Positions 9,758 to 32,669 of a stretch of 37,402 nucleotides of DNA are shown in pieces. The notes beneath the pieces are model-generated. The model saw nothing but the letters and a program-made list of their open reading frames with translations, had not been told where the DNA came from and searched no databases. Numbering within the stretch: the stretch's first letter is position 1; every line of letters begins with the position of its first letter. The translations under genes and the position numbers were made by a program. Origin of the DNA: Gammaproteobacteria bacterium (GTDB lineage Bacteria; Pseudomonadota; Gammaproteobacteria; Chromatiales; Chromatiaceae). The stretch is from assembly GCA_024275295.1 (NCBI GenBank), contig JAJRZI010000038.1, forward strand, positions 1 to 37,402, read 5' to 3'.

Positions 9758-9759
9758 GG

Positions 9760-10884
9760 CTATTCCACTGACGTTTCTGCCCATGCAATCTTCAGATTGG
9801 CGGCAGCCGCTGTATATTCATCAATCTGCTTACAGGTCAATGCAGCAATGTCACCTGATGGCTCCTCGCTAAAGGACTTATACCAATGAACAATCGCATC
9901 TACCGTCTCATCAACACCCCAGGCGGAACGCCATGTAAGGTGTTGCCTGGCTTTGCTGCTATCAACATGCAGAACAAAGGCCTCTGAACCTATCTGATCC
10001 TGCTGAACAATCAACCGTGTTGAGGGGGGCTGCCACCTGTCCAGCAATCGACTGACAATATCACCAACGGTATAGACTTCAGCTCCGGCAGGCCCAAAAT
10101 TCCATGCTGAGGCATATAAGCGACTATCAAGAGACATTTTATATGCCAGCCAGAGATAGCCACTCAATGGTTCCAGCACATGCTGCCAGGGCCGGGTTGA
10201 ATTTGGGTTGCGGATAACAACATCTTCCCCCGCTTCAATAGCCCGGACAATATCTGGAATAAGCCGATCAGCCGACCAGTCCCCTCCACCGACCGCATTA
10301 CCCGCTCTTACTGAGGCAATGGTCAGATCATCTCTACTGGTCGACTTCTGGAACTTCGGGTCCTGGTATGCAGCAGTAACAACTTCAGCCGCAGCTTTGC
10401 TTGCAGAGTAGGCATCAAAGCCACCCAGCGCATCTGTCTCGCGATAGCCCCATTCCCAACCCACATTCTTGTAACACTTGTCACTGGTCACAATAATTAC
10501 GGTTTTTACTGAAGCTGTCTTCCGTGCAGCTTCCAGTACATTAACGGTTCCCATGACATTAACATCAAAGGTATAAGCAGGATTTTTGTATGATTCACGC
10601 ACCAGAGCTTGTGCTGCCAGATGAAAAACAATGTCAGGATTATGCTGCTGGAAGGCCTGCTCCATAAACACAGAATCTAGGATATCGCCCTCTATACTGA
10701 CAATATCTTCACTTAGGTGTGCAGCATCAAAATGATTTGGATCAGTGAGTGGTGCAGTGGAATAACCGATGACTTCCGCGCCCAGTTTTTTCAACCAGAG
10801 TACCAGCCATGAGCCTTTAAAACCGGTGTGCCCTGTCACGAGCACTTTTTTGCCGTTGTAAAAATTGTTAAAAGGATTTGTCAT
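9760..10884 (-). CDS. rfbG: CDP-glucose 4,6-dehydratase
   Basis: A 374-residue extended SDR with the features of RfbG/DdhB: KKVLVTGHTGFKGSWL near the N terminus, FHLAAQALVRESY, IIVTSDKCYKN in the active site, the YSASKAAAE catalytic Tyr-Lys, then RAGNAVGGGDW, RLIPD and RPWQHVLEPLSGYLWLA, which is highly characteristic. It converts CDP-D-glucose to CDP-4-keto-6-deoxyglucose in the cytoplasm. It is the last gene of the minus-strand operon; its ATG overlaps the stop of the upstream SDR by four bases (ATGA), suggesting translational coupling. rfbF two genes upstream supplies its substrate. Confidence 0.93.
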   Translation of the reverse strand: MTNPFNNFYNGKKVLVTGHTGFKGSWLVLWLKKLGAEVIGYSTAPLTDPNHFDAAHLSEDIVSIEGDILDSVFMEQAFQQHNPDIVFHLAAQALVRESYKNPAYTFDVNVMGTVNVLEAARKTASVKTVIIVTSDKCYKNVGWEWGYRETDALGGFDAYSASKAAAEVVTAAYQDPKFQKSTSRDDLTIASVRAGNAVGGGDWSADRLIPDIVRAIEAGEDVVIRNPNSTRPWQHVLEPLSGYLWLAYKMSLDSRLYASAWNFGPAGAEVYTVGDIVSRLLDRWQPPSTRLIVQQDQIGSEAFVLHVDSSKARQHLTWRSAWGVDETVDAIVHWYKSFSEEPSGDIAALTCKQIDEYTAAAANLKIAWAETSVE

Positions 10885-11887: not shown

Positions 11888-12694
11888 TTATTTATCTCGC
11901 ACCCAGGGTGGCTTGCCAGTCGCCCAGAGATTATTAAGGTAGCTGTTGTCTTTATAGGTATCAAGACACTGCCAGAAACCATTATGTCGGTACTCCAGTA
12001 GTTGCCCGTCTGCGGCAAGCCTTTCAAGCGGATCTTTTTCAAGTATGCAGGATTCATCAGCATCCAGATAATCAAAAAACTCTTTGCGAAAAACAAAGAA
12101 ACCACCATTTATGACGGAACCCAACTCTGGTTTCTCAGAGAATTTCTTTACATGGCCATTCTCAGTCACTAGCTCACCAAACTGTGAATTGACCTGCACA
12201 CCGGTGACAGTTCCGATTTTTCCATGCGAACGATGGAAATCCAGCAATGCCTGAATATCGATATCAGCAACACCATCTGCATAGGTGACCATGAAATTTT
12301 CTGTATCAACGTACTTCTCAACCCTTTTCACCCGACTTCCCGTCATGGTTTCGGCTCCAGTATCAACCAGAGAAATATTCCCCTCCATACCCGGCTGCTC
12401 ATCAATGAATTTAGGTTTGCCCCTTGGAAAGGTCAGCTCAATATCCCGGTGCATCACCTGATAATCAATAAAATACTTCTTGATCATCATGCCTTTATAA
12501 CCCAGACAAAGGATAAAGTTATTGAACCCATATCGGCTGTATATATCCATAACATGCCAGACAATGGGGTGATCACCAACCTCCACCAGCGGTTTTGGAT
12601 AGAACTGGGTCTCTTCCCTGAATCGAGTCCCCTGTCCACCACACAGGATGACTACAGGAATATCCGAAACCCCCTTATGCCCTTTACCCATCAA
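11888..12694 (-). CDS. rfbF: Glucose-1-phosphate cytidylyltransferase
   Basis: A 268-residue NTP-transferase with the RfbF/DdhA signature: VVILCGGQGTRFREET with FYPKPLVEVG, then HIVWHVMDIYSRYG-like packing (PIVWHVMDIYSRYG here), LGYKG, YADGVADID with the metal Asp, and a C-terminal EYRHNGFWQCLDTYKD segment. It joins CTP and glucose-1-phosphate to CDP-glucose, first step of the CDP-deoxysugar branch. The ATG at 12694 is followed by a second Met; either could start. It lies 15 bases after a glycosyltransferase stop and 26 bases before the next SDR, consistent with one operon. Confidence 0.93.
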   Translation of the reverse strand: MMGKGHKGVSDIPVVILCGGQGTRFREETQFYPKPLVEVGDHPIVWHVMDIYSRYGFNNFILCLGYKGMMIKKYFIDYQVMHRDIELTFPRGKPKFIDEQPGMEGNISLVDTGAETMTGSRVKRVEKYVDTENFMVTYADGVADIDIQALLDFHRSHGKIGTVTGVQVNSQFGELVTENGHVKKFSEKPELGSVINGGFFVFRKEFFDYLDADESCILEKDPLERLAADGQLLEYRHNGFWQCLDTYKDNSYLNNLWATGKPPWVRDK

Positions 12695-16346: not shown

Positions 16347-16477
16347 CACTAACTATGGAAATGAAGTTAATCAAGAATAGTCTTTTGTTTCCCCTCTTAC
16401 AATAAGCACCCCAAATAAATATTCCTTTAAAATCAACAAACAAGGTGAGATTTTATAAAATTTATGTGTTTTTCTGG

Positions 16478-16505: not shown

Positions 16506-16726
16506 GGTGGGATTGTTTTTTTATAAAAACACTTGCTACTATTACCTAACTCTTGCAAGTGCTTGCACGTAGCTCGTAGCACGCACACTGCACAAGTTCT
16601 TGGTATGTATAGTGATATTTATTCTTTTGGGAATCACAATAAGGATTCCATCCTTAGGTCCGTAAACGGCACATCCGTGTGCTACTTCTCCACTTAAGAA
16701 TAAATTCACTCTACAAATCAATATCT

Positions 16727-16952: not shown

Positions 16953-16998
16953 CCGAAGGGTATTAAAATATATAGGCAACACAAGCAACTGACCAACT

Positions 16999-17754
16999 AT
17001 GCAAAAATTAAACAAAAAACGGATCTTTGATATTATCGTCACACTATTTGCAGCACTCTTTTGGCTGCCCGTCTTCTTGATTTGCGCGCTGGTAATCCTG
17101 ATTTTCGAGGGGCGTCCGATCTTCTATATCTCAGAGCGCCGTGTTGGTGATAGCGTCAGACGTATCATCAAATTCCGAACTATGGTGCTGAACGCGGATC
17201 GTATCTGTAATCGTGAAACAGTCCCTGTATCCGATGATGTGCGGTTTCTAAACATCCCTACAGACTCAGACCTGTACACCAAAGTTGGCAAAGTAATCGA
17301 GCGTTATACCCTGACTGAAATCCCACAACTTTTCCATGTTTTGCAAGGACATATGAGTCTAGTAGGAAATCGCCCATTACCTGAAAATGTCGTTATTTCG
17401 CTGGAAGAGGAGTTTCCTAAGGCAGCTGATAGATTTCTAACACCAGCAGGAATGACAGGGCCGGTACAATTGGTTGGAAGGACCAACATCCATGACCGTG
17501 AACGCCTAATGTTGGAGATGACATATTGTCGGGTAGCAAGCAAGGCGTACTCTTGGCGGTTGGATCTCCTAATTTTGCTTTATACGGTGTTTATAGCTGT
17601 TGGTATCAGACAACCATTAACAGTGATTGAAACAAAAGAGTTTATCCTGAAGTACTCAAACCTCAGCTTTAGTTACCCTGAGGGCCTACGTCGGCGCTCA
17701 AGCGACAATGGTTCATCCAGGCGAACCGTTTGGCCATCAGATAAACAGAAGTAG
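16999..17754 (+). CDS. Bacterial sugar transferase (undecaprenyl-phosphate phosphoglycosyl transferase)
   Basis: A 251-residue monotopic phosphoglycosyl transferase, the short PglC/WcaJ-catalytic-domain form. An N-terminal KRIFDIIVTLFAALFWLPVF re-entrant helix is followed by GRPIFYISERRVG, the KFRTM signature near residue 58, TLTEIPQLFHVLQGHMSLVG and NRPLP. It transfers a phosphosugar from a nucleotide donor to undecaprenyl phosphate at the inner membrane, starting the EPS repeat unit. The acidic LTEIPQL replaces the more usual LDELPQL. First gene of the 16-kb plus-strand assembly operon; the ribosome binding site is weak, and a 250-base repeat region lies directly upstream. Confidence 0.88.
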   Translation: MQKLNKKRIFDIIVTLFAALFWLPVFLICALVILIFEGRPIFYISERRVGDSVRRIIKFRTMVLNADRICNRETVPVSDDVRFLNIPTDSDLYTKVGKVIERYTLTEIPQLFHVLQGHMSLVGNRPLPENVVISLEEEFPKAADRFLTPAGMTGPVQLVGRTNIHDRERLMLEMTYCRVASKAYSWRLDLLILLYTVFIAVGIRQPLTVIETKEFILKYSNLSFSYPEGLRRRSSDNGSSRRTVWPSDKQK

Positions 17755-17864
17755 ACATTACGAGAAAGGACATATGTTGCCTGAAAGCTCTCATTCATAT
17801 TAATTGCAGTATCCCTTGTTTTTTTCAGGTAAAACATCAGCTTGATTCAGGACGAGTAAAAAGT

Positions 17865-18836
17865 ATGAACGGCGTGGGCCAACATACCAGCAACCTTCTC
17901 CAGACTCACTGCCCTCTGTGTACCTCAAACAATGATGCATTTATCATGCAGGGAAGGGACCCTTATCTGGATAGAAATGAAACATTTAAGGTTGTCAAAT
18001 GCCTTGGTTGCGGGTTACTCCGATTGAAAACCGTACTGCCACCAGAACAGCTTGAAGAGTGGTATGAGGCTCACTATGGCGGCCATCAACAAACACTTGA
18101 ACAAGCAACAACCGGCTCAGATGTAAAGGATCAAAAGAGCCCCAATAGAGGCCTGCTCCGCAAGTTGGCCCAGCTGAATTATCAAAACCATGTTGCATCT
18201 ATACTGCCAGCAGAGGGGAAAATACTTGAAGTGGGCTGCGGTACCGGAAACATAATAGCCCAGCTTAAAGAGAGAGGTGCTGAGGTAACCGGTATAGAAC
18301 CAGATAAAGCCGCATGCAATATTGCCAGGCTCAATGGACTTGAGGTGTACTCCATGCCATTTGAGGAGTTCCATGAGCATGGCAAAAAATATGACCACAT
18401 ATTGTTTTCATATGTACTGGAGCATATACCTGACCCTGTATCCACACTAAAGCTAGCCGGTAAACTGCTACAGCCAAATGGGCAGATCCATATTTTTACC
18501 CCGAATAACGATTCACTAGCGCGCCACCTGTTCAAATCCAACTGGATGAGCTGGCACATCCCCTATAACAAAGTATTTTTTACCAAACAGACCCTATCAA
18601 AATCGATAGATGCTGCCGGCCTAAGAGTTGAAAAAATGCAAAGCCTTAACCGGGCAGATGAACTATTAGAATCATGCAGAATTGCACGTGCGAAAAAAAA
18701 CAACAGAAATATCATTGAATTTCCAACTAAAAACAGGTTTGGGTTGCTTTTTTTCAGTCTTGTCTTCAGGCCGTTTAATCTGATCGGATATGGAAATATA
18801 CTATACGGAATCGCAAGCAAGATTCATTGTTATTGA
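17865..18836 (+). CDS. Class I SAM-dependent methyltransferase with N-terminal Cys4 motif
   Basis: A 323-residue protein. Cys16/Cys19 (HCPLC) and Cys46/Cys49 (KCLGCG) form a zinc-ribbon-like N-terminal element. The class I Rossmann domain begins with ILEVGCGTGNI at residues 120-130, GIEPDKAACNIARLNG places the acidic SAM-ribose contact, and FSYVLEHIPDP is the usual motif of small-molecule C- or O-methyltransferases. The Cys-containing N terminus recalls sugar C-methyltransferases and many EPS-locus methyltransferases. The substrate, probably a sugar nucleotide or lipid-linked sugar, is unknown. AGGACGAG precedes the ATG. It is immediately followed by two radical SAM genes. Confidence 0.8.
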   Translation: MNGVGQHTSNLLQTHCPLCTSNNDAFIMQGRDPYLDRNETFKVVKCLGCGLLRLKTVLPPEQLEEWYEAHYGGHQQTLEQATTGSDVKDQKSPNRGLLRKLAQLNYQNHVASILPAEGKILEVGCGTGNIIAQLKERGAEVTGIEPDKAACNIARLNGLEVYSMPFEEFHEHGKKYDHILFSYVLEHIPDPVSTLKLAGKLLQPNGQIHIFTPNNDSLARHLFKSNWMSWHIPYNKVFFTKQTLSKSIDAAGLRVEKMQSLNRADELLESCRIARAKKNNRNIIEFPTKNRFGLLFFSLVFRPFNLIGYGNILYGIASKIHCY

Positions 18837-19001
18837 CACATCCTAATAATTCCAGTTTTATGCTTGAATTGTATTCGCGACTATGCCTTGGACAGAAGCA
18901 GGAGGGGGCATGCAAACACTGCATCCCCTCTGGTGCTGTCGCGCAACGGGCAAGCTGTATTGCCTCAACAAATAATGCATCAGTATGGTGAGGTCGCTCA
19001 A

Positions 19002-20486
19002 ATGAAGACATTCGCATTTATCAACTTGGCTATTGACGGGGGATATCAGGGCGTTCACCACGGCGTTGCCTGTTTAATTCCCATTGTCCGCCAACACGGA
19101 TACACCCCTGTGGTTTTAAATCTGGCTTTCCCCATCACGCCGGATGATTTCATGCAGTGGATCCGCAAAATATCACCATCCATCGTAGGGTTTTCTCTGA
19201 CCTCTCTACAGCGGCGCCATTTGCGAGAGCTTTCCAATCTGCTGAAACAGCACTTTCCCGATATTTTACAAATAGCCGGTGGTTCGGGTGCCACACTGGA
19301 ACCCAATTTATCAGGCTCCAGCGTAGATGGATTTTGTGTTGGTGAGGGTGAGATACCGCTGGATGCCTGTCTGAGAGCCATTGCTGAAGAGCGGGAGATT
19401 AGTGATGTAGCTGGCTTCCATTGGCACACACCCAATGGCATCGTGCAAATAGCTCCACCACGTTTTAATCAGGATCTAGATAGCTGTGCGTTCCCTGATT
19501 ACACACCGTTTGGTCGCGACACCGTTGTCTTTGGAAGCGATCAATGCCTGAGTATGATCTTGAGTCGGGGTTGCCCCTATAAATGCACATACTGCTCAAA
19601 TGAAGCACTACGCGGTACCTACGAGAGCGCCCGTGGATATTTTCGTACCCCTTCAGTAGATTATGCAATTGATGCTGTAAAATATCAGCTGAAACTCTTT
19701 CCTGAAACGCGCTTCATCCATTTTGAAGACGATCTACTCATTGCACGAAAAAAATGGTTCATTGAGTTTGCTACACGCTATAAAGAAGAGATCAAACTTC
19801 CGTATCGTATGAATGTACGTATCGAATGTCTCACACCCGATATTGCCAATGCCCTTGAAGAAAGCGGCTGCGTCATGGCTTTTCTGGGAGTGGAAAGTGG
19901 TAACGAAGAGTATCGCAACAATGTATTGAAACGTTGCCATACCAATCAGACCATCATTGAACGATCTGCTCTGCTCAAAAAAGCCAACATCAAACTTTTT
20001 ACCTACAACATCATGGGGTTTCCTCATGAAACCGCAAGTCAAATGCGAGATACAATTCGCCTGAACCAGCAAATTGCCCCTGACTCTGGGGTTTGCACCT
20101 TCTTTTTTCCATTCCCTGGCACTGAGTTATTCAATATTAGTGTGCAGGATAAACTGCTTGATTGGGATGGCATATCAGAGCCACCAACCAACTACAACAC
20201 ACGTCCCATTATCTTACAAACTGCGTGGGACAGACTGGTCTGCACCTGGTTGGTAGCAAAATTAAGGCGCTATCTCCATTGGCAGGATGTTAAATATAAA
20301 CGTCTTCAACATCATTCCAGCCACACCTCCATGCCACAACAAATAACATACACAATGCGACTTGTGTGCTATTTTCTAGCCCGCTCATTTATTTCTCAAA
20401 ACGCCCAGCGCCGAGTGTATCATCTAGTAATGAATAACCGTCTCATTTCACCTCTGGCACAACGGTTGTTTCGAGGAGTAAGATAG
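19002..20486 (+). CDS. Radical SAM protein, B12-binding-type architecture
   Basis: A 494-residue protein. I start at ATG 19002 because GGTGAGG lies nine bases upstream and similarity begins at MKTFAFINLAIDGG; the frame is open further 5' to a TTG at 18864. Residues 1-130 look like a cobalamin-binding Rossmann domain (LIPIVRQHGY, ISPSIVGFSLTS, IAGGSGATLEPN, VDGFCVGEGE) but no clear DxHxxG B12-ligand motif is visible. The radical SAM cluster is Cys191, Cys195, Cys198 in RGCPYKCTYCSNEA, followed by FEDDLL, CVMAFLGVESGNEEY and NIMGFPHET, all typical of the family. The C-terminal 130 residues are uncharacterised. The reaction is unknown; methylation or rearrangement of a sugar or lipid is possible. 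Confidence 0.82.
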   Translation: MKTFAFINLAIDGGYQGVHHGVACLIPIVRQHGYTPVVLNLAFPITPDDFMQWIRKISPSIVGFSLTSLQRRHLRELSNLLKQHFPDILQIAGGSGATLEPNLSGSSVDGFCVGEGEIPLDACLRAIAEEREISDVAGFHWHTPNGIVQIAPPRFNQDLDSCAFPDYTPFGRDTVVFGSDQCLSMILSRGCPYKCTYCSNEALRGTYESARGYFRTPSVDYAIDAVKYQLKLFPETRFIHFEDDLLIARKKWFIEFATRYKEEIKLPYRMNVRIECLTPDIANALEESGCVMAFLGVESGNEEYRNNVLKRCHTNQTIIERSALLKKANIKLFTYNIMGFPHETASQMRDTIRLNQQIAPDSGVCTFFFPFPGTELFNISVQDKLLDWDGISEPPTNYNTRPIILQTAWDRLVCTWLVAKLRRYLHWQDVKYKRLQHHSSHTSMPQQITYTMRLVCYFLARSFISQNAQRRVYHLVMNNRLISPLAQRLFRGVR

Positions 20487-20574
20487 GCTTGTTTTTACCC
20501 ACACTCTATATGCCACTCTCTGGCAGCATACCCATAATTGCATTAGCTAATATTGAATAAGATTACCACTATAC

Positions 20575-21714
20575 ATGCTTAGATATTTCCTGAAAAAACT
20601 AAAACATTTTGCTGAATGGCCCAACCATTCGCCCAAGCGTCTTGCAAATCGTGTTGCCAACTACACATCCAGACTCAAAGCTGGCGAACATGCATTGGGG
20701 CTACCCTCTGTTGTCATGATTGAAATCAGCTCAGCCTGCCAACTGCGTTGCCCACTTTGCCCAGTCGGCAGTCAAACGCTGGACAGAGTCAGCCAAATAA
20801 TGCCATTAGAAACCTTCAAAAAAATAGTGGATGAACTGGGGGACTATCTATATCACATCAATATCAATGGCATGGGTGAGCCACTACTCAACAACCAGAT
20901 AGTTGAGATGGTAAGGTATGCAAAATCAAAAAATGTTTTTGTCGATTTATATACAAATTTTGAAATTACCGATAAGCACGAAATCATCGAAGGCCTAGTA
21001 GACGCAGGTCTGGACTCTATTTTGGTTGCAATTGATGGTGCGACATCTGCGGTTTATGAAGAATATCGCATTCGCGGAAACTTCGATCGAGTATCCGACA
21101 ATGTAAGAAAACTGGTGCAAGCAAGAAAAAAAGCAGGCAAAAGCAAACCTGAAATAAATATTCAATTTGTGCCAATGAAACAGAACCACCATCAGATGAA
21201 GGAGATGACACAGCTTGCCCATGATCTTGGAGCAGATATGCTGGAGATAAAGCGTCCCTTTCTTTTCTGGGGACAAAAAGCCGATGCGCTGAAATTTCTA
21301 CCCAATGAAGAAAAGTTCAACATGTACGAAATCGATGGTGACACAATTTCATGGAAGGGCGAAGAGAAGCCTATTTGTGGATTTCTCTGGACTTCATCAG
21401 TCATTCTGCCCAATGGCTCTGTTACGCCATGCTGTTTCGACTATGAAGGTAGCGCAACATTTGGCAACATAAATGAATCAAGCTTTATAGAGATATGGAA
21501 CGGCAAAAAATACAAGGCATTCCGTAGAGCAATGAAAAAGGGGTGGCGCTCCATACCTCTCTGTTCAAAAAGCTTTGAGGGTGGCTGCCCTAATATGTTC
21601 ATACAACCTGACGACTGGCTCATTCCAGCCGCAGACTGGGATAAAAAAGATACAACCAAGCCAGATACAATACCACCCTCCTCTGACGCCGCTAGCGGCT
21701 GTAAAAAACAGTAA
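20575..21714 (+). CDS. Radical SAM protein with SPASM domain
   Basis: A 379-residue protein. The radical SAM core starts with VMIEISSACQLRCPLCPVGS, giving Cys55, Cys59 and Cys62; NINGMGEPLLN and the VAIDGATSAVYEEYR segment follow, as in MoaA/SPASM enzymes. The C terminus is a SPASM-type auxiliary Fe-S region: ICGFLWTSSVILPNGSVTPC with a second Cys, GNINESSFIEIWN, then PLCSKSFEGGC. SPASM proteins modify peptides, but close homologues also occur in O-antigen and EPS loci where no peptide is known. No small precursor peptide gene is visible nearby. Its neighbours favour a carbohydrate substrate. The start codon has no strong ribosome binding site. Confidence 0.85.
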   Translation: MLRYFLKKLKHFAEWPNHSPKRLANRVANYTSRLKAGEHALGLPSVVMIEISSACQLRCPLCPVGSQTLDRVSQIMPLETFKKIVDELGDYLYHININGMGEPLLNNQIVEMVRYAKSKNVFVDLYTNFEITDKHEIIEGLVDAGLDSILVAIDGATSAVYEEYRIRGNFDRVSDNVRKLVQARKKAGKSKPEINIQFVPMKQNHHQMKEMTQLAHDLGADMLEIKRPFLFWGQKADALKFLPNEEKFNMYEIDGDTISWKGEEKPICGFLWTSSVILPNGSVTPCCFDYEGSATFGNINESSFIEIWNGKKYKAFRRAMKKGWRSIPLCSKSFEGGCPNMFIQPDDWLIPAADWDKKDTTKPDTIPPSSDAASGCKKQ

Positions 21715-21718
21715 TCAT

Positions 21719-21730
21719 ATAACATGTTAT
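21719..21730. repeat. 12-bp palindrome between the SPASM gene and the Wzz-like gene
   Basis: ataacatgttat is a perfect palindrome, flanked by acagt and actgt that extend the possible stem with mismatches. It lies five bases after the upstream stop. It could be a regulator site or a weak hairpin; no U-tract follows. Confidence 0.35.
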
Positions 21731-21790
21731 ACTGTGAGATATTGCCCATAAAATACAGCATCAGACTATTGTCATAGTGCCTAATTAACA

Positions 21791-23146
21791 ATGCAAGACA
21801 GCTTCCCAATAAATCCCAGACACTCATCTGATGATCAAGCAACCTTGTCTCTAAGAGACATCCTGCATGTCCTGTTTAGTCACATCAAACTGATCATATC
21901 CCTATTTATCCTAACAACATTAATAGTTACAGGTGCGCTCTCCATCTGGCCGGAGACCTATGAATCTTCTGCCAAAATACTCTTAACCGGCTCCCGTTCG
22001 AATGTGCCTGTCTCCCCTCTGCCAGCATCAAAATCACAGGTTATTACAACGAGTGGATTACGTGCAGAAGCCATTAATTCAGAGATCGAAATTCTGCATA
22101 ACTACCACATTGCAGAACAGCTGATTGACCGATTTGGAATGGATGCACTGACTCCACCCACAGTTCGACCAGTAACCCAGATGGAGAAACTCAAGGCTGC
22201 CCTAAAAAAGTTTTTACGTGATGCCAAAGAAATACTGAACGAATTCCTGTATACGCTAAATCTCAAAAAACGGCTCTCCCCAAGAGAAGCAACTATCCTG
22301 AAAATACTAAAACAATTAGAGGTTAAACAGGTTCCAAATTCAGATGTCATACAAGTATCACTTCGCTGGAACAGACCAGATATTGCCACCGCAATACTTG
22401 ACACACTGCTTGAGCAATATCTAGACAACCATATGAATGCCAGAAAAACACCTGAGGCATACCCCCTTCTGAAAAAACAGGTGGACTTGATAGAGGAGAG
22501 GTTAAAGGAATCTGATGCCAAAATCAGAAGCCTAAAGCAAAAACTGGGAATTACTTCTATTGATGATCGTGCAAGTTTTCTGGACAAGCAGCTTAGCCAG
22601 CTAGAAAGCTCATTAGTTGATATCAGGGTGGCAACCGCTCAAACCACAGGCAAACTCTCAGGAATACGCAGCCAACTGCAAACCACCCCATCATCAATAA
22701 AAAAGGCCGAAATCCGACAGCTTGAAGTGCGTTTAAATGAACTCAAATTTAAAGAGCGTGCCTTAAAAAAGCAACATGAAACATACAGAGTGGAAGCTGA
22801 TCGGCTCAACAAACACAGTGCCGAACTTAAGCGGCTAAAACGACAAATCCCTGTTGATACTGAAAATGCAAAGTATTATAGAACACGGCTTGAAGAAGCT
22901 AGAATCAATGAGCTACTGGACAGCAAAGGCATTATTAACGTCCGCATAATAGCGCCACCAAGAGCATCAATGGAACCTGTAAAACCCAAAAAACTACTTT
23001 TAATATACATTGCCATGGCCATAAGTCTGCTCGTTGGGATAGGCTTGGCCTTTATTTCTGATTTTTTTGACCACTCACTACGCAGAGGTAGTGATGTAAA
23101 AAAACATCTGGGGCTTCCATTGTTGGCTTCAGTTCCCGAGCTATAA
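21791..23146 (+). CDS. Wzz/GumC-like polysaccharide co-polymerase (chain length determinant)
   Basis: A 451-residue inner-membrane protein with the PCP-2 layout. The first membrane helix is at about residues 30-52 (HIKLIISLFILTTLIVTGAL), followed by WPETYESSAKILL, a typical Wzz-domain strand. The periplasmic part from about 200 to 370 is strongly coiled-coil (LIEERLKESDAKIRSLKQKL and similar). RIIAPPRASMEPVKPKK is the expected proline-rich motif before the second helix (LLLIYIAMAISLLVGIGLAF). The cytoplasmic tail DVKKHLGLPLLASVPEL is what normally leads into a tyrosine-kinase domain, here encoded by the next gene. It sets chain length together with the Wzy-like polymerase and links to the Wza-like exporter. 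Confidence 0.88.
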   Translation: MQDSFPINPRHSSDDQATLSLRDILHVLFSHIKLIISLFILTTLIVTGALSIWPETYESSAKILLTGSRSNVPVSPLPASKSQVITTSGLRAEAINSEIEILHNYHIAEQLIDRFGMDALTPPTVRPVTQMEKLKAALKKFLRDAKEILNEFLYTLNLKKRLSPREATILKILKQLEVKQVPNSDVIQVSLRWNRPDIATAILDTLLEQYLDNHMNARKTPEAYPLLKKQVDLIEERLKESDAKIRSLKQKLGITSIDDRASFLDKQLSQLESSLVDIRVATAQTTGKLSGIRSQLQTTPSSIKKAEIRQLEVRLNELKFKERALKKQHETYRVEADRLNKHSAELKRLKRQIPVDTENAKYYRTRLEEARINELLDSKGIINVRIIAPPRASMEPVKPKKLLLIYIAMAISLLVGIGLAFISDFFDHSLRRGSDVKKHLGLPLLASVPEL

Positions 23147-23283: not shown

Positions 23284-23892
23284 ATGTTTCGAGCAATTAC
23301 GAAATCCATCCTGCTGCCCACATCGCACCCAAAAGTCATACTTCTTACTAGCTCTCTTGAGCAGGAGGGATGCTCAACAATTGCATGCCGCCTCGCTATC
23401 GCATTGGCCAAGGAAAAAGGGAAAAAAATTCTACTTATTGATGCCAATCTCAGAAATCCAGAGATGCATAAGCTTGCCGGCTCCTCTAATAACAATGGGC
23501 TTGTTGAGCTAATAAATGGAAGTTCAAAGCTGAGTGATGTAGTGCGAACAACTAAACAAGGCAACATTTCTGTAATAACCAGTGGGCATGGGAAGAACGA
23601 ACCATCACAAATCTTTAACGAAGAGCGGTTAAAGCCTTGTCTAGACCTATTAAGAGAGGTTGCTGATTACATAATAATTGATGGTGCACCACTTGGAAAA
23701 TTTCCTGATTCCTATTTTCTTGCCAAAGTAGTAGATGCCGTTGCCCTTGTTGTTCATGCTGGAAATACACGCTGGGAAGTGGTAAAGGAAGTGAAGCAAC
23801 GACTTGAAGATGAAGCTAATGCAAATATTCTTGGCGTTATATTGAATCGCACAACAAACCCCATTCCAAACTTCATATACCGTCGCATGTAG
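23284..23892 (+). CDS. CpsD/Wzc-type tyrosine-kinase-like ATPase lacking the Walker A lysine
   Basis: A 202-residue P-loop protein of the BY-kinase fold directly after the Wzz-like gene. The Walker A region reads LEQEGCSTIACRLA, where family members have EGKST: Lys is replaced by Cys (codon tgc). Walker A' is LLIDANLRNPEMHKL and Walker B is YIIIDGAPLG, with the Asp kept. The C-terminal tyrosine cluster is reduced to a single Tyr near FIYRRM. Catalysis is therefore doubtful; it may regulate Wzz without ATP turnover. The N terminus is abrupt: in another frame from ATG 23237 the codons read TPLGQHNDRCFEQLR, which resembles the missing start, so a one-base frameshift near 23300 is possible. Confidence 0.72.
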   Translation: MFRAITKSILLPTSHPKVILLTSSLEQEGCSTIACRLAIALAKEKGKKILLIDANLRNPEMHKLAGSSNNNGLVELINGSSKLSDVVRTTKQGNISVITSGHGKNEPSQIFNEERLKPCLDLLREVADYIIIDGAPLGKFPDSYFLAKVVDAVALVVHAGNTRWEVVKEVKQRLEDEANANILGVILNRTTNPIPNFIYRRM

Positions 23893-23964: not shown

Positions 23965-25907
23965 ATGCTAAACACCGCTCCTCTCTCCACGCTGTTCAAA
24001 AGGTTATTTTCCTTACCTCTATTCACCCTACTGGTTGGCCTCTTGCTGGGTGCACCTGCATCCTCCCAAGCACAGTCATTTAATACGATAAGGTCAGCCT
24101 GTGCTAAAACCATACCTAAAATCGATGGGAAGCTGGCTCAAAATGAGTGGATCGACAGCAAAGAGATAAAAACCAGTCTGAATCTTATCAGCCTGGCAGG
24201 CAAGACAGGGGAAAGCCATCCGTTCTCGCTCTTTCTGAAAAATGATGCCAATTTCTTATATATTGCCGGCCAACTAAAAGAGGAAGAGGCCGATGGAAAA
24301 GTTGATGCCGCAGACTTCACCACTCTAGTCATGGATTCCTTCTCCATCCTCTTTGATAACAACAACAATACAAAAGTTGATCCAGGTGAAGATAAAAAAT
24401 CTCTGTATATTCTTAACTCACAACAAATGGTTGTAGATGCACACAGCCTCTCAGAGTCCGAAAAAGAACAGGGAAAAAATGAAGAAAATGAACTCCAAAA
24501 CATAACGGGGGCCATCAGGCATACCGTCACCCCCCCCTTGGTTCATATGTATTTGAGACAAAAATCCCCCTCTCAAGCCCAGATAAATATGATATCCAAA
24601 CTACTCCTGGCGCCACACTACGCTGGAACATTGTTTATTTTGATAAGTTCAACCTCTCCCTGAAAGACACGCTTATCGGCGGCCTTTACAGCACTAATCT
24701 TGAAAACACATCTGACTGGGGCATGATTCAACTGGCCACAAGCAGCGAGAGAGGATGCCCCATACAGGTCATACCAGGAGCACCACCTGGTGGAAAAAGC
24801 ATAAAGATAGTCGCCCAAATCCTCAATGAAAAAGATCTATCAGCATCGAACCTCCGCTTTATCGGCCAGCGATTCGACCTTGTCCTAACCATGTATCCCT
24901 TCAAGCACGTTTCAGACGCCTTAAGGCAGGAAAACCCAGATATAACCATCCTATTATTCAACAACCCCTATTTTGCATTTGGTGAAAAATTCTGGGGGTC
25001 ATCAGACAGCCCAGAAATAATAGCACCTGACTGGATCTTACTAGACGAGGATGGAGAATTTATCCCCTATGGTGGCCCAACCTACGAAGGCATAAACATT
25101 GATCAAAGCAATATCCCGTTAATGGATATCCGCAACAAGGAATGGCAGAAATATTTCGCTAGCCAAACGCAAAAACACATTATTGCAGGGAATATGGATG
25201 GCGTATTTATTGACACCATGAGTGAAGAGATACCTCCATTTGCCTTAACCAAAGACAATAGCTTCCCGGCAGGCTATACCGCTTCTGAATGGAAGCAAGC
25301 TAACTATGACCTACTCAATGAGATACGAACACAATTACAGGGAACAGGAGCTGCCCTCTATTACAACGGTATCAGTAATCCACCCGGCCTGGTTGGTGGC
25401 GCACAGAACAAGGGGTTTATTGAAATCACTGATGGCACAGCCATTGAGGCCTTCAGCATATACCTTTCCATAGATAGCAGTGAAATGGCAAAACGCTGGT
25501 ATCTCGAAAAATCCATCCTACAAGACATGCAGGCGGTAACAGATCTAAACAAAGGCCTGGTTGTTGAGGTATATGGTGAAACAGATAGCCTGGAACACCG
25601 GATATTCGCCCTAAGCTCTTTTCTGCTGCTACAAAACAAAAACACCTATTTTTACTACACAGTCCGTAATGAAGCTGGCGCATTAAAGTGGAGACCAGAA
25701 TGGTATACCGATCTTGGAAAGCCACTGGGAAAATATGTACGAGATGGTGACATCCTCATGCGTGAATTTGAAAATGGACAGGTTTACGTCAATGCAGGCA
25801 CCGATACTGCACAGATAGCCTTGAAGCAGACTTATGAGGACTCGCAGGGTAATCCAATCAACAAGCTCACATTGCAACCCCTGACTGGATCTCTAGTTGT
25901 AAAATAA
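23965..25907 (+). pseudogene. Exported CBM9-like plus GHL15-like glycosidase, split by a frameshift in a C8 tract
   Basis: Two frames make one protein of about 647 residues. The first (23965-24663, start after AAGGAAAAATTG) has a signal peptide ending near SSQAQS and a CBM9-like domain (IPKIDGKLAQNEWID). After the C8 run at 24530-24537 homology continues in the -1 frame: LGSYVFETKIPLSS, GATLRWNIVYFDKFN, then IGGLYS and DWGMIQLATSS, which enters the second frame (from 24723 on), where FDLVLTMYPFK, GVFIDTMSEE and ALYYNGISNP resemble the GHL15 hypothetical glycoside hydrolase (TIM barrel). A ninth C, or a -1 slip at the run, would restore the protein. Function: probably polysaccharide trimming outside the inner membrane. 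Domain names are from memory of motif style, not search. Confidence 0.78.
24530..24537 (+). other. C8 homopolymer at the frameshift site
   Basis: Eight consecutive C residues interrupt the CBM9-like coding sequence exactly where the reading frame changes. Homopolymer tracts of this length slip during replication and transcription, and are classic sites of phase variation. Equally, they are classic sites of sequencing or assembly error. The sequence alone cannot separate these. Confidence 0.8.
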
Positions 25908-26048: not shown

Positions 26049-27275
26049 ATGATGACCAGCGCACACAAAAACAAGAAAGTGGATTTCAACTACTCTGGGG
26101 AAACACTCAACATCCATGTTGTAACAGATGGAATGGGACTAGAGGAGCTGGAGGCCGACTGGAGAAGGCTGACAGATACGCTGAGTGTATTCTCATCCTA
26201 TGAGTGGATTCAGAGCTACTGGCATCATCTGGGGTCAGGCAACCTGTTTATCCTGGTTGTAAGATGTAACGGGGCTGCACGTTGCATTGCTCCTTTTGCA
26301 GTAACAAGATGCAGGTTTCTGGGTATCCCATATAAACGGATACAGTTTATTGGTACGGAACCATCTGGAACCTCTCCCTTAAATCCTCTGAACCGTATTT
26401 TTGCCATTGACCACCGCATTGGCTGGGCCAACAAGGCAAATTTTATAGCTTTGCCTGAAGATGCATATTTAACCGGAGCTGTCGCTTCCTTTCTGGCAAA
26501 GAACAAACATCTCTGGGACATCCTGGATCTCAGGGAAATCCAGGACAATTCACCCTACATGGAGTATTTTCACAAAGAGTTATCGAAAGGCAACGCACGT
26601 TCTCATATAGTGGCAGGCGATCCAAGTGCCTATATTGAACTCTCGAAAGACTATCAGACCTATGTAAAAAGCCGCAGCAAAAATATACGGAAGAATATAC
26701 AAGTGTGCACCAAAAGGTTACACAAGGCAGGTCGCGGTGAATTTATAACAATAACAACTCCAGAAGAGGTTATTGAAGCCTTACCAAGTATAAAAAAACT
26801 AGAGCAAGCAAGCTGGAAGAACAATGATGGCGTCGGTGCTTTCTCAAATACAGAGAGAGAACTGTTTCATTGCACACTAGCTGAAGCTCTGGCAAGAGAT
26901 GATCGTTTTATCCTTTTTTTGCTGAAGTCAAAGAAAGGAGATATTCTCACCTACTATTATTCATTTCTATATGGCGACACTCTTTATCTTCACAACACCG
27001 CCTTTGATATCAAAGCAAGAAAATGCTCGCCAGGAATTATTGCATTTCTTAAAGTGGTGGAATGGGGGTTTGATCAGGGGCTTGCTCGTGTTGTTATTGG
27101 TAGGGGTGGACAATATTATAAGAATGCATACAGGACAGGAACCACAGCACGCTCGTGGCACTTTATTTTTCGTGATTCAGTATTGATGCGACTCCTCGCC
27201 ACAGTGGAGCTGGGAATATTGCCATGGTTGAGAGCAAAGAAAAAAGCCTTATCAACAAATAGCGTTAACACCTAG
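26049..27275 (+). CDS. GNAT-fold acyltransferase (FemAB/CelD-like)
   Basis: A 408-residue cytoplasmic protein with the CelD/BcsL-type acetyltransferase pattern: SSYEWIQSYWHHLGSGNLFILVV near residues 48-72, YIELSKDYQTYVKSRSKNIRKNI before the core, EQASWKNNDGVGAFS, YYYSFLYGDTLYLHNTAFD and KCSPGIIAFLKVVEWGFDQG, ending RGGQYYKNAYRTG. Proteins of this family transfer acyl groups in cellulose and EPS synthesis, and FemAB-like members accompany XrtA/PEP-CTERM loci. Probably acylates a sugar of the repeat unit. Its ATG is doubled (ATGATG); start choice does not change the domain. Confidence 0.8.
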   Translation: MMTSAHKNKKVDFNYSGETLNIHVVTDGMGLEELEADWRRLTDTLSVFSSYEWIQSYWHHLGSGNLFILVVRCNGAARCIAPFAVTRCRFLGIPYKRIQFIGTEPSGTSPLNPLNRIFAIDHRIGWANKANFIALPEDAYLTGAVASFLAKNKHLWDILDLREIQDNSPYMEYFHKELSKGNARSHIVAGDPSAYIELSKDYQTYVKSRSKNIRKNIQVCTKRLHKAGRGEFITITTPEEVIEALPSIKKLEQASWKNNDGVGAFSNTERELFHCTLAEALARDDRFILFLLKSKKGDILTYYYSFLYGDTLYLHNTAFDIKARKCSPGIIAFLKVVEWGFDQGLARVVIGRGGQYYKNAYRTGTTARSWHFIFRDSVLMRLLATVELGILPWLRAKKKALSTNSVNT

Positions 27276-27310: not shown

Positions 27311-28789
27311 ATGCCAGCTAATCTGGGCACAATTATTTTATTGCCATTACGCTATCTACTCATGGCGGGCTGTTTGAGCGCACTAGTTTTTTTCCTGGGG
27401 ATTAAGAGCCTCATTATCGCAGCAGGCGGATTAGTTGCAGTAGCAGTCTTGATCTGGCCGCAAGCCGGCCTGGCAATGACCATTGTTGCGGTAATGAACC
27501 TTCAGACCTGGGGAAAGCTTGGCGACGTAACCGGGGCGGCACTTTTCCCCAGCATAGCCAAGATCATGGGGGCATTAACACTACTAGCATGGCTATTTAA
27601 TGTTCTGAGGACAAAAACAACACCGATCATTACCTGGCAAATGTCCATAGGCGCTTCTTTTGTAGCCCTCTGCGCCGCTTCACTTGTGTACGCGCCAGAC
27701 CCTACCAGTGGCAGTATTATGCTCACAAAGATCCTGACTAACTTCATGCTCTATTTTCTGATTGCAAATCTAATTACAACAATCACTCATTTGCAGAGAT
27801 TCACATTCATATTTTTGATTACAGGCCTTATCTGCTCCAGTATTGCTTTGTACCAGTACTTCTCTCCAGCATCTGATATAACCGCCTTAGAAGCAATGCT
27901 AAAGTTTGCCACCCAGGAAGGAGCAGTCGTCAACCCCGAAGACCTTGCTTCCGGTAATTTCAAACGACCCAGCGGTACGGTAGGACACCATAACTGGTTA
28001 TCACTCTTTATGATATCGGTCATCCCTTTGAGCGTAGTATTCCTAAAAAAATACTTTCACCCATGGGTGAGAATTATTGCCGGAATATCACTTATCACAG
28101 GATTTATAGCCACAGTGCTTACGCACGATAAACTTGGTCTTGTCGGGCTGGTATTCATTGTCATCATGGTTCTATCTACCCAGCTGCTAAAAATAAACCG
28201 AGGTATTTTTGGCGCAGCAATATTTTTTGGCATAATCTCCTTTGCACTCTTGCCTGATAGTTACAAGGAGCGTGTCCTATCCATTGCAAATATTGCTAAA
28301 AGTGAATCGACCTCCGCACGCCTTGAACTACAGAGGGTAAGCTGGGATATATTTATTGAAAATCCATTGCTTGGGGTAGGCTATGGCAATTACGGGGCAG
28401 CCTATATGGAGCAGGACAGCTACCTGGTTGAGCAGGTCAAGTATCTAATGAATGCAGGTTCATCCTATCAGATCACTGATATTGGCGCCCATAATATGTA
28501 CCTGGAAGTCCTGTGCGAAACAGGCATTATTGGCTTGACGCTTTGCCTGCTGTTTTTCTTTTTTGCGATAAGGGATCTATTGCATGCAAAGCGACTTGCC
28601 CTTAACGGACAATCTCCTGATTGTGATGCAGATCTGGTTAGAGCTATTATGATTTGTCTATCAGCATTTATTTTTGGTGCTACTTTTCTTCATGGCTTAG
28701 AGCAGAAACCATTGTGGATATTGCTAGGATTTTCTGTCGCAGCCCTTCGAGTAATGCAAAATCGTTGTACGCCTGCAATAAACCCCTAA
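27311..28789 (+). CDS. Wzy-like O-antigen polymerase/ligase family protein
   Basis: A 492-residue integral membrane protein with about 11-12 hydrophobic segments. The family signature is the large periplasmic loop and following helix: NPLLGVGYGNYGAAY, then GAHNMYLEVLCETGIIGLTL, the HN-x-Y-L-E motif of O-antigen ligase/polymerase (Wzy_C) proteins. It would join lipid-linked repeat units on the periplasmic face. It is the only such protein in the operon, so the polymerase role is the natural reading. GAGAAAAG upstream of the ATG gives a fair ribosome binding site. Confidence 0.87.
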   Translation: MPANLGTIILLPLRYLLMAGCLSALVFFLGIKSLIIAAGGLVAVAVLIWPQAGLAMTIVAVMNLQTWGKLGDVTGAALFPSIAKIMGALTLLAWLFNVLRTKTTPIITWQMSIGASFVALCAASLVYAPDPTSGSIMLTKILTNFMLYFLIANLITTITHLQRFTFIFLITGLICSSIALYQYFSPASDITALEAMLKFATQEGAVVNPEDLASGNFKRPSGTVGHHNWLSLFMISVIPLSVVFLKKYFHPWVRIIAGISLITGFIATVLTHDKLGLVGLVFIVIMVLSTQLLKINRGIFGAAIFFGIISFALLPDSYKERVLSIANIAKSESTSARLELQRVSWDIFIENPLLGVGYGNYGAAYMEQDSYLVEQVKYLMNAGSSYQITDIGAHNMYLEVLCETGIIGLTLCLLFFFFAIRDLLHAKRLALNGQSPDCDADLVRAIMICLSAFIFGATFLHGLEQKPLWILLGFSVAALRVMQNRCTPAINP

Positions 28790-29049: not shown

Positions 29050-30375
29050 GTGACTAACCCCGATACCAGTAACACCGCCTCACAACCGGCAAACAGTATA
29101 GAGATAAAAGAAGAGGATGAAAGCCTTTTTGCTAAGCTAAAAAATATATTTTTTGTGGCTGGTGGTCAAATGATGGGCACGGGTCTAGGTTTCGTAGCCA
29201 GCATAATGGTTGCCCGTCTGCTAAAAGTAGAGGATTTTGGTCTTTTTTCCCTATTTCTTGCAACCATGCTGCTCGGCGTTGAATTTTCAGGAAAAAGCCT
29301 TGATTGGGGGATGGTGCGATATTCAGCAGAGCATTTTATTTCAGACAAATGCCGGGCAGAAGCCTTATTACGAGAGGCGTTGCTTATCCGCACTATATTA
29401 GCAATCATCGTTATGGTTGCTGGGGTACTTATCTCGCCCTGGATTGTCAGAGAGCTTCTTGATAAGCCGGAGCTCACAACATTATTGCAGTTGGCCTTTA
29501 TAGGAACAATAGGGCTTTCAATCTGGTGGTACTGCCTAGCAGCACTGCAGTCACAACAGCTTTTCATGCATCATGGCGCATTAAATCTGGGGCTTGGGTT
29601 ACTGAAAGTGATAGTGGTTGGCTGCCTGTTTATCTTAGGCACCAAATCGCTGGACATTGTTGCAATATCCTATGTCGGTATCGCATTGCTCTCATGCCTA
29701 TTTGCTCTACGCATAATCCCACTCTCACTAACACTCAAGCGTGGGCAACGCAGTAAGCTGCTTGGCAGGTTTCTGCATTTCAGCAAGTGGGTAGTTATTA
29801 CTAACCTTATTATGGCTGTACAAATACAACAAAGCTTGTTCTGGGTTAATAATTATAGTGATACGACAGCCTTGGGTCGCTATTCAAGCGCCTGGAATTT
29901 AACCTTGGGTATGGATGTTTTTGCTCTTGTTATGATCACAGTCTTTTTGCCATCAGCCAGCAAACTCAGTAGCGCCACTGAATACAGGCGTTTTGCCCGT
30001 CATTCAATCTTGATTTCACTGATTATCATAACCTGCCTATCCCCCCTCTTTATCTATGCAGAGCCAATAATTACCACATTATATTCAGAGGACTTTAAGG
30101 GGGCTGGCAACATATTTCAGATTCTATTTGCAGGAACACTGCTTACCGTTATGATCCATCCCATCAGCGTGCTGCTGTTGGCCAGAGATAGGCCGCAGCC
30201 ATTTTTTTATGCCGCCTTGATTATTCTGCTAGTAAGTTTGGTTGGCAATATGCTAGTCGTCCCAATACATGGTGCAACCGGTGCTGCAATTGTTGCAGCA
30301 AGCAGTAAAGTACTTTATGGCCTGGTATTGGTTTTTGAGTTATGGCGTATAGGTGTATTTTCAAGGCAAAAATGA
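29050..30375 (+). CDS. Wzx-like flippase (MOP/polysaccharide transport superfamily)
   Basis: A 441-residue membrane protein with roughly 12 predicted helices. An acidic cytoplasmic N terminus (EIKEEDESLFAKLKN) leads into FFVAGGQMMGTGLGFVASIMVARLLKVEDFGLFSLF, the classic first two helices of Wzx/MOP flippases. Later helices contain LLQLAFIGTIGLSIWW and IILLVSLVGNMLVV-like segments. It should move the undecaprenyl-linked repeat unit across the inner membrane. The start is GTG at 29050; no strong ribosome binding site lies upstream, though CTGGAGG is 24 bases away. Confidence 0.88.
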   Translation: MTNPDTSNTASQPANSIEIKEEDESLFAKLKNIFFVAGGQMMGTGLGFVASIMVARLLKVEDFGLFSLFLATMLLGVEFSGKSLDWGMVRYSAEHFISDKCRAEALLREALLIRTILAIIVMVAGVLISPWIVRELLDKPELTTLLQLAFIGTIGLSIWWYCLAALQSQQLFMHHGALNLGLGLLKVIVVGCLFILGTKSLDIVAISYVGIALLSCLFALRIIPLSLTLKRGQRSKLLGRFLHFSKWVVITNLIMAVQIQQSLFWVNNYSDTTALGRYSSAWNLTLGMDVFALVMITVFLPSASKLSSATEYRRFARHSILISLIIITCLSPLFIYAEPIITTLYSEDFKGAGNIFQILFAGTLLTVMIHPISVLLLARDRPQPFFYAALIILLVSLVGNMLVVPIHGATGAAIVAASSKVLYGLVLVFELWRIGVFSRQK

Positions 30376-30508: not shown

Positions 30509-31393
30509 ATGTCACTCATGCTGAAAAAAATGCTAACTAAATCTGTTAAATGGGGAGTCACCAATGTATTTGGCCATATCCCGACCAAGCATCCCAGAAT
30601 TCTTGCATATCATACTGTAGATAACAGCAGCTCTATCATTTCAACATCCCCATCAGCTTTTAGACGACATCTTGAGTTTCTATGTGATAATGGGTATCAA
30701 ACTACCACTCTATCCAAGCTTACCGCGGATAATGGCGCTACCAGTAATAAAAACGTTATTATTACTTTTGATGATGCCTATGAGTCAGTTTACGTAAATG
30801 CATTCCCCATACTCAAAGAATTTGGCATGGCGGCTGTTGTATTTCCAGTAAATAATTATGTGGGTAAAAAAGCAAGCTGGATAGCAAGAGACAGAGAACA
30901 TATACTTACAAATCTAATGCCAAAACTTAATATGAGTGAAGCAGAACGTAAACTCGAAGAACAACGATTACAGGTTTTAGGATCTTTATCACTCATGTGC
31001 TGGGATGAGATCAGAGAAATGAGCGAGCAAGGGATCCAGTTCCAATCACACAGTTGTAGCCATCCATTTTTTTCTACTATAAGCATAAATCAAATACAAG
31101 ATGAGCTTGGCCGTTCCAAAGATGATCTTGAATCACGTCTTAAAAAAAAGGTGGAATGGTTTTGTTACCCTTATGGTGACGCGGGTAACAGCGATGTAGA
31201 CAGTGTGCTTGAAGAGCTTGGCTATATCGGCGCTTTAACTGCAAACTACGGGCGTTTTCATGGAGATAGAGAGAAGCATTATGTAATGGATAGAATGCCT
31301 ATCTATACAGGGACAGAGAATTCTGATTTAAAATTCTGCTTCTCCCGAGCCTTTGATGTGCTAAACGATGTTGGGAAGATATTACGCCGATGA
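30509..31393 (+). CDS. Polysaccharide deacetylase (CE4, NodB-like)
   Basis: A 294-residue protein with CE4 motifs in order: RILAYHTVDN, the metal-binding ITFDDAYES (Asp88 and Asp89), QSHSCSHPFF with His181 and His185, and WFCYPYGDAGN. It removes acetyl groups from N-acetylated sugars of the polymer. There is no clear signal peptide, only a basic N terminus (LKKMLTKSVKW), so the compartment is uncertain. A lone insertion of about 40 residues between the DD and HxxxH motifs is unusual but occurs in EPS-locus members. Its stop overlaps the next start by four bases. Confidence 0.87.
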   Translation: MSLMLKKMLTKSVKWGVTNVFGHIPTKHPRILAYHTVDNSSSIISTSPSAFRRHLEFLCDNGYQTTTLSKLTADNGATSNKNVIITFDDAYESVYVNAFPILKEFGMAAVVFPVNNYVGKKASWIARDREHILTNLMPKLNMSEAERKLEEQRLQVLGSLSLMCWDEIREMSEQGIQFQSHSCSHPFFSTISINQIQDELGRSKDDLESRLKKKVEWFCYPYGDAGNSDVDSVLEELGYIGALTANYGRFHGDREKHYVMDRMPIYTGTENSDLKFCFSRAFDVLNDVGKILRR

Positions 31394-32610: not shown

Positions 32611-32669
32611 ATGCCAGATTATCTTGTTATCAAGACTGCTTTACAGGCATGCATTTTTTAGGTGATAAA

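Follow-up and report, generated by a model that had tools for sequence, protein, structure and literature searches.

Three adjacent genes on a 37,402-nucleotide contig from a gammaproteobacterium of the Chromatiaceae (assembly GCA_024275295.1, contig JAJRZI010000038.1; the whole contig was analysed and is called the window here, its genome being of the same family as the relative G063) encode P0002, a class I S-adenosylmethionine (SAM) methyltransferase, P0003, a radical SAM protein with a B12-binding domain, and P0001, a radical SAM protein with a SPASM/twitch-type auxiliary domain, all within a Wzx/Wzy exopolysaccharide (EPS) locus. Four other genomes, spread over four phyla, have radical SAM genes of the latter two types together next to flippase genes, polymerase genes or both. 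Mainly on the strength of these four loci and of the EPS setting, we judge that the three proteins, on balance, probably form an accessory sugar-tailoring module of the Wzx/Wzy pathway. Genes, motifs, folds, setting and the recurrence of the radical pair are directly established; we infer that the pair acts on a sugar, a nucleotide sugar or a lipid-linked sugar. Sugar-editing radical SAM enzymes are familiar from antibiotic and hopanoid pathways.

Three genes between the sugar transferase and Wzz

A first-pass annotation of this DNA, made from its letters alone, had placed a Cys4 methyltransferase and two different radical SAM enzymes between an initiating sugar transferase and a Wzz-like gene, and the arrangement is as described: three same-strand genes at 17865-21714 lie between the sugar transferase gene (16999-17754) and the Wzz gene (from 21791), with gaps of 110, 165, 88 and 76 nucleotides before P0002, P0003 (from 19002), P0001 and Wzz, respectively. 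Pfam and NCBIfam matches bear out the Wzx/Wzy setting, the locus running on the plus strand from 16999 to 33389 in the order sugar transferase, P0002, P0003, P0001, Wzz, autokinase, a protein at 23965-24663, GHL15 protein, FemAB-like protein, Wzy, Wzx, deacetylase, GT4 and Wza (Table 1). The same annotation credited all three proteins with an intact CxxxCxxC motif, which is correct for P0003 and P0001 and incorrect for P0002, from which the motif is absent.

P0003 has the architecture of class B enzymes, a B12-binding domain ahead of a radical SAM domain that carries CxxxCxxC (C192/C196/C199; residue numbers include one extra leading residue), both PF02310 and PF04055 scoring over cut-off. The TTG at 18864 is probably not its start, since a GAGG (18990) precedes the ATG at 19002, where the B12 domain begins. 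As first annotated, P0003 contains no DxHxxG anywhere; the motif is likewise absent from the first 150 residues of all 55 rows of an alignment of P0003 relatives (A3, in which row L043 is without the N-terminal part), so that P0003 has not lost it but shares its absence with the sampled relatives, and its absence read as a sign of a protein without cobalamin was rejected. Nor does the absence argue against cobalamin, because the folds closest to P0003 include those of OxsB (5ul3/5ul4) and TsrM (6wte), whose structures were each solved with cobalamin. Neither of these two proteins is known to have a DxHxxG. Cobalamin is plausible for P0003 since CobS is present in the window's genome.

The predicted model of P0003 (predicted local distance difference test score 87.6, predicted template modelling score 0.85) has two solved folds tied as its closest, MgmA (Z 30.9, root-mean-square deviation 2.7, 369 residues aligned) and AprD4 (Z 30.5, deviation 3.4, 403 aligned), and by sequence the best solved chain is AprD4 (expectation value 2.5e-12). 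Its best curated family is HpnJ (TIGR03471), at 93.1 bits against a cut-off of 577.6; P0003 is thus not a member, and a profile search of the window's genome gave no match over that cut-off. Nor does P0003 belong to the AprD4 family (NF033070, 47.1 of 500 bits).

P0001 combines the radical-cluster cysteines C55/C59/C62 with C-terminal auxiliary cysteines C268/C286/C330/C338, and with PF13186 and PF04055 over cut-off it is the radical SAM/SPASM protein that had been annotated. C268 and C286 are present in 28 of 28 rows of alignment A4 and C330 and C338 in 27 of 28, with C287 found in 17; since only four auxiliary cysteines are conserved, P0001 probably holds one auxiliary cluster. By sequence, BtrN is its closest solved relative (9e-12), and the folds nearest to its model lie within Z 21.4-22.6 (DesII 22.6, SkfB 22.6, SuiB 22.3, BlsE 21.6, BtrN 21.4). 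We propose that P0001 is a sugar alcohol oxidase or another sugar-acting radical enzyme.

The Cys4 assignment of P0002 was equally sound: C16, C19, C46 and C49 form its N-terminal set, and Methyltransf_23 scores over cut-off. Among solved chains it matches UbiG (2.6e-12), a sugar 3-C-methyltransferase weakly (2.1e-5) and TcaB9 (0.0024), the last two over the shared Rossmann part. Zinc-binding N-terminal and C-methyltransferase C-terminal Pfam domains of the TcaB9 kind (which we take to be PF08421 and PF08484) do not appear for P0002 at 0.001, so it does not belong to that kind. We regard P0002 as a generic class I methyltransferase and propose a sugar O-methyltransferase function.

Recurrence beside flippase and polymerase genes

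Recurrent co-occurrence with polymerase and flippase genes had been named in the first-pass annotation as the check to make. It is found for the two radical SAM types (in G058, L081 and L191, and with a flippase in L192) and is not found for the trio as a fixed unit. The P0003-chosen loci are those of the best 80 of 513 relatives among 588 stretches, obtained by a contig scan with a seven-protein alignment. The best match among these 80, in Planctomycetota (L081), lies in a run of tyrosine kinase, sugar transferase, Wzy, one further gene, SPASM, three B12-type radical SAM genes, two GT4 genes, a LegB-like 4,6-dehydratase (NSE2), a sugar-1-phosphate nucleotidyltransferase (NTT), a sugar dehydratase/epimerase (NSE1) and Wzx; its SPASM protein is only 26% identical to P0001 and has its highest scores with other families. 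G058, a genome of the window's family (loci L047 and L177), was found independently of the radical genes as the top Wzz relative among 112 genomes, and holds within 20 kb B12-type, GT4, methyltransferase, Wza, SPASM (34%), NTT (49%), NSE1, NSE2 (52.5%), Wzy, kinase and Wzz genes, with a cytidylyltransferase relative (49%), deacetylase, GT4, Wzx and sugar transferase in the following 20 kb. In Nitrospinota (L191), 11 kb contain a SPASM gene (30%), a B12-type gene adjoining it (33%), a second B12-type gene (31%), a second SPASM-type gene, GT4 (29%), Wzx (29%) and a Wzy-like gene (24%, 1.5e-7), while in Patescibacteria (L192) B12-type (31%), GT4, methyltransferase, Wzx and SPASM (32%) genes are consecutive. 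The window-derived profile detected no methyltransferase in L081 or L191.

Across all 80 P0003-chosen loci (1.27 Mb), six P0001-like genes of at least 40 bits were found where 1.3 were expected, a four- to fivefold local excess with a rough Poisson chance of 0.002; the baseline comes from 30 of those genomes, in which about 80 Mb gave 83 rows (in some cases a pair of rows covers a single gene), and the count excludes a seventh locus gene, at 36.8 bits, whose genome lay outside the search. Approached from the P0001 side, the ten best rows from 30 genomes comprise L122 and L124, both with B12-type genes, and eight further loci, five of which (L189, L191, L192, L194 and L195) have B12-type genes close to the SPASM gene. 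The ten loci do not represent a random draw, since the 30 genomes had been chosen for P0003 and, through our own selection, abounded in SPASM-bearing loci. Pfam scanning of 126 neighbours of P0003 relatives (at most three genes to either side, from the 25 usable loci among the top 30) returned 15 radical SAM, 10 B12-binding, 8 GT9, 6 GT2, 5 methyltransferase and 4 GT group 1 proteins, families that overlap.

On the evidence of nine Wzz-chosen loci besides G058, we rejected the idea that XrtA-like EPS loci normally include radical SAM genes. In the stretches read, these nine hold no B12-type gene and a single SPASM-like one (G266, about 15 kb from Wzz), with the reservation that G272, G178 and G161 are cut by short contigs and G152 has few EPS genes; G178 carries a P0001 relative on a contig other than that of its Wzz locus. 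The radical genes are therefore an accessory of some EPS loci and not a general part.

Distribution and phylogeny

Matches to P0003 occur in 60 of 112 related genomes at 0.001 (best others 33-34% identity) and to P0001 in 18 of 112 at 1e-12 (best other 34%); in a class-wide sample at 1e-25 the figures are 5 and 12 of 369, respectively, the window's own genome being included throughout. Over long stretches the best identities are 37% for P0001 and 35% for P0003, neither exceeding about 37% in any search made, and among five other genomes of the same genus P0003 has weak matches in two. A tree of 57 rows (54 of the 55 A3 rows, L043 being dropped at under 380 residues, plus three other locus proteins) shows P0003 as a long branch (2.06) without a resolved sister and the G058 B12-type protein in another clade. 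A single EPS-specific clade of P0003 and L081 was not supported, the tree leaving the placement of P0003 unresolved. Plasmid searches returned 41 records for P0003, the best on Solidesulfovibrio magneticus pDMC1, and 33 for P0001, nine of them from Brachyspira, with relatives at 29% on pBHWA1.

Two further clusters came to light. One, in G063 (Candidatus Thiosymbion), is a series of four consecutive B12-type radical SAM genes (L055, 5927-11894). The other, on Solidesulfovibrio carbinolicus pDCAR1, consists of three radical SAM genes side by side (L187, 10968-15476), close to genes of the nonulosonate-type synthase and cytidylyltransferase kinds and to methyltransferases.

Proposed role and alternatives

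In the pathway that we propose, P0001 would cleave SAM at its C55/C59/C62 cluster, abstract a hydrogen from a sugar carbon and pass an electron to its one auxiliary cluster, at C268/C286/C330/C338; a keto sugar would result, in the manner of BtrN. P0003 would perform radical chemistry at a sugar carbon; given a sugar substrate, cobalamin-dependent C-methylation is the reaction we find likeliest, at somewhat under an even chance, and dehydration or ring rearrangement, as with AprD4 or HpnJ, might occur instead. P0002 would O-methylate the sugar, and the product, either a nucleotide sugar or a lipid-linked repeat unit so modified, would go to Wzx for flipping, to Wzy for joining and to Wza for export. 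A sugar substrate is supported by the closest solved chains, AprD4 for P0003 and BtrN for P0001, which act on aminoglycoside or aminocyclitol substrates. The first-pass suggestion that a sugar, nucleotide sugar or lipid carrier is modified gains from the recurrence of the radical pair, its substrate being still one that we infer.

Several observations weigh against this role. Fold and family scores tell apart neither methylase from dehydratase for P0003, with MgmA and AprD4 tied, nor, by fold, sugar from peptide enzymes for P0001, with DesII, SkfB and SuiB tied. By narrow window-derived profiles, 44 of the 80 P0003-chosen loci (many ending at contig ends) have no glycan match; 36 have a glycan gene, 17 a SPASM-type gene, two Wzx or Wzy, and just eight both SPASM and methyltransferase, on which count, the flanks being often cut by contig ends, the trio was rejected as a conserved unit. 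Its unity is further loosened by the B12-type protein of G058, which belongs to another subfamily than P0003 (Sden_1168-like, 275 bits). Three of the eight further P0001-chosen loci (L190, L193 and L196) show neither a B12-type gene nor a glycan gene recognised by profiles, and five other searched genomes of the same genus hold no P0001 relative at 1e-12. The pDMC1 relative of P0003 is flanked by transposases and hypothetical genes, with GT2 genes about 10 kb off.

P0003 might also act on a lipid-linked amino sugar without methylating it: by analogy with HpnK and HpnJ on hopanoid glucosamine, the deacetylase would free the amine and P0003 would contract or rearrange the ring. Among curated families HpnJ scores highest for P0003 as well as for its relatives in L081, L082 and L073, and a polysaccharide deacetylase is present both in the window locus and in G058. 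The relevant passages of PMC12583986 have HpnI, HpnK and HpnJ acting serially as glycosyltransferase, deacetylase and radical SAM enzyme, and those of PMC13142503 state that the known non-methylating cobalamin radical SAM enzymes all form or rearrange rings. We nevertheless consider this course unlikely, the HpnJ score falling far short of a cut-off that nothing in the genome passes. The deacetylase, moreover, is a PF01522 protein in the EPS loci of both the window and G058, and PF01522 deacetylases are found in many EPS loci.

That the radical SAM pair instead modifies a peptide or matures a protein (as for a ribosomally synthesized and post-translationally modified peptide, or in enzyme maturation) and merely neighbours EPS genes is an improbable reading. 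It has in its favour the fold tie of P0001 with SkfB and SuiB, the metalloenzyme maturase families that lead the curated matches of P0001 (at 129.5 and 116.0 bits, each falling far short of its cut-off) and a 30-residue open reading frame with Trp and Cys (18883-18975) preceding P0003. That frame, however, has no visible Shine-Dalgarno site and is expected by chance, since 122 open reading frames of at least 25 residues overlap 15000-25000; with the gaps short, the annotated lack of a visible precursor peptide holds. Some radical genes overlap in L081 and L191, leaving no precursor room between them, and no peptide transporter or precursor-recognition domain scores over cut-off among the scanned window proteins. 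As no precursor stands out and radical genes overlap in these two loci, peptide modification is less likely than sugar tailoring. It seems improbable, too, that the genes have no fixed role in this polysaccharide and are carried along in a mobile region that changes fast, a view to which the IS110-type and IS21-type transposase genes of the window, the ceiling of about 37% on long-stretch identity of the radical genes in relatives, and the near absence of such genes from the nine Wzz-chosen loci would lend themselves, whereas the intact motifs and reading frames, the reappearance of the pair next to flippase and/or polymerase genes in four further genomes from four phyla, and some local excess of P0001-like genes near P0003 relatives speak against it.

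Beyond sugar tailoring in this one locus, a mobile radical-SAM glycan-editing module, consisting of a twitch-type oxidase and a B12-type enzyme and present in four or more phyla in loci with Wzx, Wzy or both, might build carbon-branched, deoxygenated or ring-contracted sugars into exopolysaccharides, a generalisation that we hold to be possible, if rather doubtful. If true, it would mean polysaccharide chemistry beyond ordinary nucleotide-sugar enzymes, and should radical chemistry of this kind extend to the repeat units of polysaccharides, the glycans of capsules and biofilms would hold sugar skeletons unforeseen by present pathway prediction. The recurring gene pair provides concrete loci for testing.

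Relation to known systems

The cobalamin radical SAM methylases MgmA, TsrM, CysS and TokK share the B12-binding and radical SAM fold with P0003, for which cobalamin binding is plausible, but by entry title their substrates are protein, amino acid or pantetheine-linked. P0001 resembles BtrN, BlsE and DesII in fold and, in its cysteines for one auxiliary cluster, the twitch domain that we take BtrN to have; it differs in being at most 23% identical to them, and the peptide maturases SkfB and SuiB equal them in Z. AprD4, the radical SAM 1,2-diol dehydratase of the apramycin pathway, deoxygenates the pseudodisaccharide paromamine (PMC5461906); P0003 shares its whole fold but only 18% of its residues, and scores far below its family cut-off. 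The same source, where it treats GenK and GenD1, has them as class B radical SAM enzymes that C-methylate aminoglycoside sugar carbons. HpnJ, the hopanoid cyclitol ether enzyme, forms a ring on hopanoid-linked glucosamine, a lipid-linked amino sugar (PMC12583986, in the part on this enzyme); for all its lead among the curated families of P0003, no hopanoid gene scores over cut-off among the scanned window proteins. GenK/GenD1, AprD4 and HpnJ are precedents for radical tailoring of sugars, among which sequence makes no choice.

The literature already has radical SAM genes annotated within glycan clusters, so that known enzyme families are met here, with a proposed chemistry in this setting. A plasmid glycan cluster of Brachyspira hyodysenteriae is reported, in the part of PMC4267127 concerned, to contain several radical SAM genes with glycosyltransferases and rfbF, and for the capsule locus of Campylobacter jejuni HS:19 the corresponding part of PMC8743553 shows a radical SAM gene adjoining a methyltransferase. 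Both resemble the window in having radical SAM genes among glycosyltransferases with rfbF or methyltransferases; the Brachyspira cluster, described by annotation, differs in that the plasmid stretch read has no Wzx/Wzy/Wzz set named in it. An EPS pathway with demonstrated radical SAM tailoring was not found in searches of open-licence PMC papers, among which passages on Xanthomonas (PMC3130047) and Burkholderia (PMC12013268) had no bearing on the question.

Layout of the locus

Upstream of the EPS locus are nucleotide-sugar genes (6050-12694) and two GT4 genes. Wzz, kinase, Wza and ligase score clearly against XrtA-system families yet under the XrtA/PEP-CTERM curated cut-offs (121.8 of 278.85, 117 of 230.65, 104.1 of 180 and 79.8 of 188.1 bits), which makes the locus XrtA-like only, and divergent.

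Table 1. Profile-matched features of the window, by position
Feature	Position	Strand	Evidence
NAD sugar dehydratase/epimerase (NSE1)	6050..7000	+	PF16363 201.8 bits; 30.5% to L047 (G058), 34% to L081 gene
LegB-like 4,6-dehydratase (NSE2)	7016..8017	+	TIGR04180 424.4 bits (cut-off 475); 52.5% to L047 (G058), 53% to L081 gene
Sugar-1-phosphate nucleotidyltransferase (NTT)	8045..8758	+	PF00483 130.1 bits; 49% to L047 (G058), 42% to L081 gene
CDP-glucose 4,6-dehydratase	9760..10884	-	TIGR02622 470.3 bits (cut-off 278.45)
Glucose-1-phosphate cytidylyltransferase-like	11888..12694	-	TIGR02623 293.2 bits (just under cut-off 300.25)
GT4 glycosyltransferase, relatives in L047, L081, L191	12710..13855	-	PF00534 131.9 bits
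Initiating sugar transferase (short form)	16999..17754	+	PF02397 126.8 bits (cut-off 27)
P0002, class I SAM methyltransferase, 323 residues	17865..18836	+	PF13489 (Methyltransf_23) 83.9 bits (cut-off 27)
P0003, B12-binding-domain radical SAM protein, 494 residues from ATG	19002..20486	+	PF02310 44.7 bits (cut-off 32.1); PF04055 68.2 bits (cut-off 29.5)
P0001, radical SAM protein with SPASM/twitch-type auxiliary domain, 379 residues	20575..21714	+	PF13186 SPASM 64.0 bits (cut-off 21.5); PF04055 Radical_SAM 56.0 bits
Wzz-type chain length determinant, XrtA-like	21791..23146	+	PF02706, PF13807; TIGR03007 121.8 bits (under cut-off 278.85)
Tyrosine autokinase	23284..23892	+	TIGR01007 143.7 bits (cut-off 108.05)
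Putative glycoside hydrolase-like protein	24723..25907	+	PF14885 GHL15 86.0 bits
GNAT protein, presumably FemAB-like	26049..27275	+	PF13480 64.5 bits
Wzy-type polymerase/ligase	27311..28789	+	PF04932 67.5 bits; TIGR03097 79.8 bits (under cut-off)
Wzx-type flippase	29050..30375	+	PF01943 61.8 bits
Polysaccharide deacetylase	30509..31393	+	PF01522 93.9 bits
GT4 glycosyltransferase	31390..32610	+	PF00534 65.7 bits
Wza-type export protein, XrtA-like	32586..33389	+	PF02563 69.6 bits; TIGR03027 104.1 bits (under cut-off 180)

A protein with a PEP-CTERM sorting signal is encoded beside the EPS locus on the minus strand (15444-16121; TIGR02595 23.1 bits, cut-off 16), which fits an exosortase link. The protein at 23965-24663, next to the GHL15 gene, has no Pfam or NCBIfam match at 0.001; by eye its start is signal-like and the protein presumably resembles CBM9-like domains. 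Nested inverted repeats at 16725-16965, directly upstream of the sugar transferase gene, have 31 matches in the window's own genome (self included, many of them pieces) and are on that account a dispersed repeat or miniature mobile element. Transposase genes of IS110 type and IS21 type flank the glycan genes (1807-2910 and 34603-36829), and a papain-family protease of 759 residues with a lectin-like domain (3500-5779) adjoins the nucleotide-sugar genes.

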